DNA from: a virus
DNA: 64,000 nt
Virus record (IMG/VR): IMGVR_UViG_3300032242_001916
Coordinates: 1 to 64,000 of that record
Reading direction: 5' to 3' (one strand)
Below are positions 25,296-26,802 of this stretch, in pieces; position 1 is the first letter of the stretch, and each line of letters begins with the position of its first letter. Both the position numbers and the translations under genes were made by a program. Below the pieces are notes generated by a model that worked only from the letters and a program-made list of their open reading frames with translations, ran no database searches and was not told the DNA's origin.

Positions 25296-25343
25296 AGCGT
25301 CTCCTTGCTTAAACTATATACACACCGGTTGTGTAAATAGTAG

Positions 25344-25417
25344 TGGGGCGTGTGGGACTTGAACCCACGACGGGCAGATTATGAGTCTGCTGCTCTAACC
25401 AACTGAGCTAACGCCCC
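25344..25417 (-). tRNA. tRNA-Met (anticodon CAT)
   Basis: Cloverleaf on the minus strand: acceptor GGGGCGT/ACGCCCC, D-arm AGCTCAGTTGGTTAGAGC, anticodon stem GCAGA/TCTGC with loop CTCATAA, T-arm GTGGG-TTCAAGT-CCCAC, discriminator A. The CAT anticodon fits elongator Met. A lysidine-modified Ile tRNA cannot be excluded from sequence. Confidence 0.9.
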
Positions 25418-25938: not shown

Positions 25939-25961
25939 AAGCACCCCTTTACTATGCTAGT

Positions 25962-25982
25962 GAGCAGTTTATACACATGCTC
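25962..25982 (-). repeat. Hairpin repeat copy A
   Basis: GAGC-ATGTGTATAAACT-GCTC on the minus strand. The 13-base loop is shared with copies B and C. AAGGGG and the ATG of the 26-residue peptide follow. Confidence 0.55.
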
Positions 25983-26226
25983 AGGTGTTACCTATACTTC
26001 GACATCCTTTGGTGATAGGTAACCAGTCAGTCTTTTATAGTCATCCTTAGGACTATGCTTATTAAGTGCGGAATCGATTGGTACTTTCGCGCCCCGTCCG
26101 ACGTTGGGTTGGGTTTTTACGGCCAACCTGCAACTCTAACTCGCCTATTCATCATCATGGTATACCTAGTAAACTTTCACAACTAGTAGTGACACCGGTG
26201 ATCGCTCTCCTATAAGCAAAACTAAT

Positions 26227-26249
26227 GAGCCAGTTTATAGTCATGGCTC
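26227..26249 (-). repeat. Hairpin repeat copy B
   Basis: GAGCC-ATGACTATAAACT-GGCTC on the minus strand, with one more stem pair than copy A. It is followed by CTTATAGGAGAGCGAT, close to the sequence after copy C. Confidence 0.55.
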
Positions 26250-26427
26250 AGGACTCTTATTAGGAACGGAATCGTTGTAGGCTTTCGACGTAGCCGGGCA
26301 CGTTGTGGAGGGTAAAACCATTGCACATATACCACGGTCTAGCTACTTGCTCGCGTTTCCAGCATGCTCGTTGTTAGTTTTACCCGTAAGAACAGAGGCA
26401 CTACGTAATCGCTCCCCTATAAGTCTG

Positions 26428-26446
26428 TGCAGTTTAGAGACATGCA
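26428..26446 (-). repeat. Hairpin repeat copy C
   Basis: TGC-ATGTCTCTAAACT-GCA on the minus strand. The stem is short but the loop is almost the same as in copies A and B. It is followed by CTTATAGGGGAGCGAT. Confidence 0.45.
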
Positions 26447-26574
26447 GGTCATCAGCTTTTGATTACTTGAGCGCCTAATCAAGTTGCCTCCGTTATTTAT
26501 ACTCGCTGAGGCTCATGCCCTAGCATTTGTACGAGTCTTCTACCGTTCGACATTGCGGCTACTAGGCGAAGTTT

Positions 26575-26802
26575 TTAATGTATTTTGTTATAGTTTGTAT
26601 ATTTAATTGGGGTTGGATTAGTTTCATCAATCATAATCAAACTATTACCATTACGAAGTAAGTCCATAGTTGGACCATCAAGCCACGTAAGGTCTTCAAT
26701 TGGCACGTAATGTTCCTTATCCCACTTAGCAGCGTACCTTTTGCTGGTAGTGTAACGGAATACACGGTAATTGATTTTTATCTTAAAAAGGAAATCTTTC
26801 AT
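26575..26802 (-). pseudogene. Fragment resembling the Walker B region of the MoxR/CobS-like ATPase
   Basis: Residues 39-68 of this 75-residue product (LTWLDGPTMDLLRNGNSLIM then IDETNPTPIKY) align with VWIDGPVTDVVRNGGALNL then DELNFISPKIY of the ATPase at 22,856. There is no Walker A, sensor or arginine finger. It is therefore a fragment or a domain co-opted from a paralogue. GGAGGACTA precedes the start and it is coupled to the upstream small gene by TAATG, so it is probably still translated. Confidence 0.55.

Follow-up and report, generated by a model that had tools for sequence, protein, structure and literature searches.

The gene-free stretch and its surroundings

The question raised by this locus is what a virus encodes in a stretch of DNA that carries no recognizable gene. 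The window, i.e. the whole stretch of DNA analyzed, comprises the first 64,000 bases of IMG/VR record IMGVR_UViG_3300032242_001916, which is 94,100 bases long; in a DNA-level search over 24 kb, no annotated phage was similar except for 57 bases of tRNA. The first-pass annotation had noted a region without supported genes (table 1), close to a tRNA-Met, and had suggested that its minus strand may encode a very large structured RNA, either of the GOLLD or ROOL kind or of a new class. The absence of a gene was borne out, as stop-to-stop stretches do not exceed 65 aa on the plus strand and 47 aa on the minus strand, and no reading frame across the region is conserved in the homologues described below (contigs L149, L047 and L163). 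Both flanking ORFs and the 100-aa ORF (orf100) that follows lie on the minus strand. The tRNA-Met was placed nearby as claimed, and this proximity recurs: in L047 the tRNA-Met, orf100 and the RNA adjoin one another, while in L163 orf100 and the tRNA-Met are found within ~2.5 kb of the RNA domain.

Table 1. Features of the locus, listed in the direction of the encoded RNA.
Feature	Position	Strand	Sequence	Remarks
75-aa ORF	26575-26802	minus		upstream flank of the gene-free stretch
Gene-free stretch	25940-26574	minus (encoded RNA)		begins beside a stop codon; small ORF after its end
Domain A	26451..26571	minus	GCCUAGU...GAACGGUAGAAGACUCG...CAGCGAGUAUAAAUAACGGAG	includes hairpin ACUUGA/UCAAGU
Pseudoknot copy a	26429..26450	minus	GAC-CU-GCA-U-GUC-UCUAAAC-UGC	shortened
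Domain M, first copy (M1)	26256..26423	minus	CUUAUAGGGGAGCGAU...CGAUUCCGUUCCUAAUAAG	closing helix CUUAUAGG/CCUAAUAAG
Pseudoknot copy b	26227..26255	minus	AGUC-CU-GAGCCA-U-GACU-AUAAAC-UGGCUC	descriptor score 20
Domain M, second copy (M2)	26057..26217	minus	GCUUAUAGGAGAGCGAU...AUCGAUUCCGCACUUAAUAAGC	palindrome GGUAUACC; aligned with M1, L149, L163 and L047
Degenerate pseudoknot-like stretch	26028..26056	minus	AUAGUCCUAAGGAUGACUAUAAAAGACUG	core identical in L149; usual S2 absent
Hairpin	25987..26023	minus	GUUACCUAU/AUAGGUAAC	directly before the last pseudoknot, two bases common with its S1; unchanged in L149
Pseudoknot copy c	25962..25988	minus	ACAC-CU-GAGCA-U-GUGU-AUAAAC-UGCUC	3' end of the element
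Small basic ORF, 26 aa	25858..25938	minus	MDKKIVLSLVVANKRRPVEPKKKGGK	after the last pseudoknot; leads into the 100-aa ORF
tRNA-Met	25343-25417	minus		near the gene-free stretch

The stems that had drawn attention to the region proved uninformative. All three dyads named in the first-pass annotation are present, and the number of stems is near that expected by chance: two 9-base dyads were observed against 0.8 in shuffled sequences (two were reached in 52 of 300 shuffles and in 102 of 312 genome windows), and 208 5-base dyad words against 190. Only the 7-base words were in mild excess (20 vs 11.8 in shuffles; 15/300). Loops resembling GNRA, which had been offered as a sign of RNA, occurred at chance level. 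Folding of either strand gave an MFE at the level of the shuffles (z-score of +0.08 for the minus strand and +0.97 for the plus strand). Since neither MFE nor dyad counts were better than in shuffled sequences, they are unusable as evidence for a structured RNA.

The individual dyads fared differently. The pair GTTACCTAT/ATAGGTAAC is identical in homologue L149, and GGGTAAAAC/GTTTTACCC lies in a portion that is absent from the other homologues. The pair TTGATTA/TAATCAA is lost in L047, where a different hairpin, helix P2 of domain A, is kept by compensatory changes (ACUUGA/UCAAGU to CCCUGA/UCAGGG). What had been overlooked is the true signal of the region, i.e. three copies of a pseudoknot and long domains that are repeated.

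No known family accounted for the RNA. A cmscan search of the window against Rfam 15 at gathering scores returned tRNAs only, the region itself gave nothing at E<=10 apart from a meaningless miRNA match, and the homologues contained no ornate RNA. Thus GOLLD and ROOL had no covariance-model match in the window (gathering), the region (E<=10) or the homologues, and HEARO (HNH-associated RNA), whose model had also been proposed for the search, was without a match in window or region. The same was true of group I and group II introns; the region sits between complete ORFs.

A probable modular RNA with shuffled domains

The region very likely encodes a structured RNA of ~610 nt with several domains, which would be transcribed from the minus strand. 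Its modules are arranged in the order A - pseudoknot - M - pseudoknot - M - hairpin - pseudoknot (table 1). Within domain A, the loop UAGGCG of the hairpin can pair with the 5' CGCCUA, forming an inner pseudoknot.

Homologues of the large element were found on three related phage contigs; with DNA patterns from domains A and M, only these gave real matches, and all other matches lacked the pseudoknot and the partner motifs. In L149 the modules run A - pseudoknot - M - hairpin - pseudoknot, with two blocks that are 93 and 92% identical. L047 contains the same modules in a different order, M - pseudoknot - spacer - pseudoknot - A - pseudoknot (78 and 85% identity), indicating that modules have been shuffled, and L163 has M - pseudoknot alone (95% identity over 59 nt). 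Domain A together with the following module is 93% identical over 169 nt in L149, and 78% identical in L047. The contigs are also related by their genes, in that L163 shares MoxR and VWA genes with the window, L163 and L047 share the 100-aa ORF and the tRNA-Met, and L047 has a 28-aa ORF (MPKKDTKLVLKLTTANSKRKPAPRAKSK) in a position equivalent to the 26-aa ORF of the window. A search for related phages with the VWA protein found none with a single sequence, and with an alignment only the L163 contig.

Alignment of the homologues revealed the covariation that was expected of a structured RNA. In domain A, not only P2 but also helix P4 is maintained (AUGC/GCAU to GGAU/AUCU). The ends of M1 are the same in M2, L149, L163 and L047; the closing helix of domain M changes from AGGGG/UUCCU to AGAAA/UUUUU in L047, and its inner hairpin covaries (GGUUGG/CCAACC, GCUUGG/CCAAGC, GUUAG/CUAAC). 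Because there are only four examples of the large element, the covariation within A and M rests on few changes. Copies b and c of the pseudoknot differ in both helices by compensatory changes (in b, AGUC/GACU and GAGCCA/UGGCUC), and at the place of the shortened copy a, L047 has the full form GAC-CU-GAGCA-U-GUC-UGUAAAC-UGCUC. The proposal of a large structured minus-strand RNA, like the alternative of a new class, is supported by compensatory changes in the homologues and by covarying pseudoknots; an assignment to GOLLD, ROOL or HEARO is not.

The 8-nt palindrome GGUAUACC is kept in M2, L149 and L163 amid variable surroundings. It occurs just three times in the 94-kb genome.

Gene-free stretches are found in other phages as well. 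The crAss-like phage cr7_1 has a similar one of ~630 bases with two pseudoknots, in cr124_1 tRNAs follow, and Erwinia phage Berlingot has one of ~1.5 kb with a pseudoknot. The Berlingot stretch (L166:910-2428) also contains tRNA-like pieces, with the pseudoknot in the middle, and is a candidate large RNA; coliphage GJ1 (L168) has blocks (CTCGCAGTT...AACCTGCG) similar to those of Berlingot. A second gene-poor stretch of ~300 nt, possibly another structured RNA, lies on the minus strand of L047 (1510-1810) and L149 (580-860). Its long-range closing helix is of the GAGTAGAGA type in one case and of the ATGGGGAGT type in the other, with the partner ~275 nt downstream in both; this stretch was not found in the window. 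In L163, a type II hammerhead ribozyme (Rfam RF02276, 39.4 bits) was detected at 304-365 on the plus strand, ~3 kb upstream of the M domain.

A widespread 27-nt pseudoknot

The module present in three copies is a 27-nt H-type pseudoknot of the form NNNC-CY-GAGCA-W-GNNN-NUAAAC-UGCUC, in which NNNC pairs with GNNN (S1) and GAGCA with UGCUC (S2). A blastn search with the region yielded one short match of 27-35 bases in the roseophages SIO1, ICBM1-3 and P12053L, where the copies lie between the genes for ribonucleotide reductase and glutaredoxin. The shared piece, ACACCTGAGCATGTGTNTAAACTGCTC, forms a GAGCA/UGCUC hairpin whose loop GUGU pairs with the preceding ACAC.

The 21-nt core of copy c was found in at least 120 IMG/VR stretches, and slightly altered in the roseophages; a second pattern, in which S1 was left free, gave at least 120 further IMG/VR matches. 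A similar pattern was found in 27 contigs of bacterial assemblies, compared with ~0.5 expected by chance (20 fixed bases, 257 billion bases, two strands, equal base frequencies), and the plasmid collection searched was without a match. In Saprospira grandis (L303) and an Oscillatoriaceae assembly (L312), the pseudoknot is a CRISPR spacer, lying between the repeats.

Both helices covary. At 133 viral sites fetched without selecting S1, all four S1 pairs were formed in 106, with ~38 different S1 combinations. The covariation score was 0.317 for 58 distinct sequences, vs 0.078 in shuffles (reached in 0 of 500) and at most 0.056 in slid controls. A descriptor of the pseudoknot found 306 sites in 4 Mb of fetched phage DNA vs 7 in the reversed sequence; most of these loci had been fetched by the sequence pattern of the motif, which does not apply to the matches with other S2 helices (e.g. 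GGCCA/UGGCC, GGGUA/UACCC, AGGCA/UGCCU, GGUCA/UGACC). In the 33 further sequences with S2 variants, all nine pairs were altered on both sides in a compensating manner; as this set was selected for pairing, the fair test is the enrichment over reversed sequence. The descriptor fixed CY before S2 and AAAC before S2'. Positions left free were also nearly constant, the inner S1 pair being C-G in 122 of 128 sites and the last S2 pair A-U in 127 of 128.

Annotated phages with the pseudoknot include the crAss-like phages cr7_1 and cr124_1, Erwinia phage Berlingot, coliphage phiEcoM-GJ1, Lactobacillus phiEF-1.1, Vibrio D-phages, Mycobacterium phage Labelle, Synechococcus S-H35 and S-EIVl, Moorella MTATph1, the thermophilic phage D6E, Arthrobacter Molivia and Staphylococcus phietaviruses; a few copies among them depart from the perfect form, e.g. 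through a single mismatch in either helix or an extended loop. Mostly the pseudoknot is found without domains A or M. As a pattern of sequence and pairing, a widespread and uncatalogued phage pseudoknot is practically certain. Rfam 15 had no entry matching it or the large element at gathering or permissive thresholds, the literature open to search outside subscription journals gave no description of the motif, and a paper on cobaviruses that carry the pseudoknot mentions no such element under the terms searched. The folded RNA that the region very likely encodes, with the 27-nt pseudoknot as one of its building blocks, is a previously undescribed one.

Comparison with known RNAs

The closest known system is coremin (GUCCGAAGACGUUAAACUAC), a motif of RNA viruses that stalls Xrn1 and scanning ribosomes (PMC10520033). 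Both are ~20-30 nt long with a first helix of 4 bp and a loop that begins with Y and ends with A and then A/U; in the common phage form, which reads GUCC-UGAGCAU-GACGUUAAACU-GCUC, (G)UUAAACU follows, and in both the sites lie in 3' UTRs and intergenic regions. The coremin spacer UUAAACU, which follows hp1, has its counterpart in the phage sites, with U before AAAC in 101 of 128 and after it in 127 of 128 sites, AAAC itself being fixed by the descriptor.

The loop differs. The hp1 loop of coremin follows the consensus YGAD or YGNNAD, with G required at position 2 (PMC10520033), whereas the phage loop has 8 nt and U at this position: CU opens the loop at 125 of 128 unique sites and CC at the other 3, with a descriptor that required CY and to which CG loops are invisible. 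A separate scan for CG loops of 4-6 nt found none, nor was the canonical coremin motif present in the 4 Mb of fetched loci. In addition, the inner five bases of the phage loop pair with UGCUC after AAAC, the downstream hairpin hp2 of coremin was not seen by eye in the pseudoknot flanks inspected, and the phage pseudoknot belongs to DNA phages of bacteria. Owing to these differences in the loop and its pairing, the pseudoknot is not classed as coremin.

Like GOLLD, ROOL and OLE (Rfam; PMC12286853), the large element is a large phage RNA with multiple pseudoknots, and it shares a nearby tRNA with GOLLD and ROOL. Unlike these, it has no covariance-model match, its domains are modular and shuffled, and its pseudoknot also stands alone between genes. 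The lack of ORFs is shared with the long non-coding RNAs of ICP1 (gp139-gp140) and phage K, which are abundant transcripts (PMC7567579, PMC9241854), but no genuine copy of the pseudoknot was found in the segments searched: the descriptor gave nothing for ICP1 (78-100 kb), and its single match within the initial 50 kb of phage K was spurious and distant from the spacers linked to tRNAs. Type III antitoxin RNAs (ToxI) are likewise short pseudoknot RNAs. They are known in phage defence and form tandem 36-nt repeats, and their sequence differs from that of the phage pseudoknot. ToxI was rejected, since the pseudoknot copies are dispersed, ~90 nt to kilobases apart, and no named toxin occurs among the annotated neighbours, many of which are hypothetical.

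Position relative to genes and possible function

The pseudoknot is nearly always intercistronic. Of the 248 sites whose context was long enough to judge, only 2 fall within an open frame in the sense direction, while a gene on the same strand ends within 400 nt upstream at 242 and one starts within 400 nt downstream at 236. At 150 sites a gene ends no more than ~25 nt upstream; the spacer that separates S1 from the stop codon measures 5 nt in 33 of them and 6 nt in 25, with a practical minimum of 4 nt and almost never shorter. Genes ending just upstream include those for RNR, SSB, Hsp20 and DNA polymerase, and genes starting just downstream include those for thioredoxin or glutaredoxin, the RNR small subunit, SSB, PhoH and scaffold. 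Such neighbours are often highly expressed in phages. The next start codon is often 15-40 nt downstream, with a long tail of 100-300 nt.

A stimulator of readthrough or frameshifting was rejected, as open in-frame continuation was not in excess: extensions of at least 20 codons past the stop occurred at 40 of the 150 sites, compared with 44 and 60 in the other frames. An intrinsic terminator was rejected as well, because no consistent T run follows the pseudoknot (at least 6 T in the next 9 bases at 55 of 306 sites only).

The explanation that best accounts for the modules, the covariation of both helices, the intercistronic position and the breadth, all of which are observed directly, is a multi-domain minus-strand RNA whose pseudoknots belong to a phage-wide class and act as mechanical roadblocks; its probability is estimated at about 0.55. 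The roadblock function itself, taken separately, is given roughly even odds or somewhat less. According to this explanation, the region and its minus-strand neighbours would be read together, and the large RNA would be released as a separate molecule. The pseudoknot may fold tightly against a terminating ribosome or an oncoming exonuclease, so that the RNA beyond it would be insulated and processed phage mRNAs stabilized; at this locus, the pseudoknots would stabilize the non-coding RNA itself. The resemblance to coremin, with its stalling of Xrn1 and scanning ribosomes (PMC10520033), speaks for a roadblock. The fold of a flaviviral xrRNA blocks bacterial RNase J1 in vitro (PMC5760640), and such a block is therefore possible in bacteria. 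A broader and more tentative proposal is that the 27-nt pseudoknot, common to tailed phages of many phyla, may be the prokaryotic counterpart of viral exonuclease-resistant RNAs, placed at a fixed distance behind stop codons and dividing the decay of polycistronic mRNA into independent units, with some phages building ornate non-coding RNAs from it. E. coli is not known to possess RNase J, and as coliphages carry the pseudoknot, blocking 5'-3' decay cannot be all that it does.

The main rival is a translational role at the stop codon, by which the pseudoknot, at the mRNA entry of the terminating ribosome, would affect termination, recycling or re-initiation at the next gene. Judging from ribosome footprints, a ribosome with the stop codon in its A site would have S1 of a knot 5-6 nt beyond at its mRNA entry; the spacer with its sharp lower limit and the nearby start codons agree with this. 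The long tail of downstream distances does not, and neither do the copies within the non-coding RNA and before tRNAs or the missing sign of readthrough, and a mainly translational element is considered unlikely. Less likely again is that a protein of phage or host binds the pseudoknot, as an operator or a processing site, and reads its loops, which would leave S1 free to vary. S1 does vary freely amid kept sequence, part of the conservation having been fixed by the search pattern; against this, the phages concerned have hosts very distant from one another, no protein common to these phages could be identified, and multiple copies stand beside unrelated genes.

For the large element, a diverged cage RNA is improbable. 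GOLLD and ROOL form cages (PMC12286853), and a relative of theirs would function as an oligomer with the pseudoknots as mere scaffold; the size, the nearby tRNA and the several pseudoknots would fit, and the conserved palindrome could kiss. However, there is no Rfam match, the domains change order and may occur on their own, as in L163, which is unlike a cage monomer of fixed build, and most copies of the pseudoknot are found apart from A and M. Chance stems in an ordinary spacer combined with a DNA-level repeat, e.g. a recombination site, would suit the ordinary MFE and dyad counts, but the probability is very small, since the orientation follows gene sense, the spacing from the stop codon holds on the sense strand, and compensatory changes across the crossed pairing refute this for the pseudoknot.

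A short pseudoknot that covaries so clearly, lacks an Rfam entry and is found in phages from marine, lake, soil and human gut habitats would constitute a novel component of phage gene expression in general. If the roadblock includes a block of exonucleases, DNA phages of bacteria would share a strategy with flaviviruses and with RNA viruses of plants, and a ready tag for stabilizing mRNA in bacteria would be at hand. The precise spacing from stop codons makes the function directly testable, and the pseudoknot provides a way into the question of why large non-coding RNAs are present in phages.

In many phages (L012, L014, L017, L019, L037 and similar ones), a conserved hairpin structure of ~60 nt, one of a few types, precedes the pseudoknot; an example is AGTCTGCACCCCGTCACTGGGGAGTCGCAGACT...CGGGT...ACCCG. 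Such an arrangement is sometimes located upstream of FmdB-like genes.
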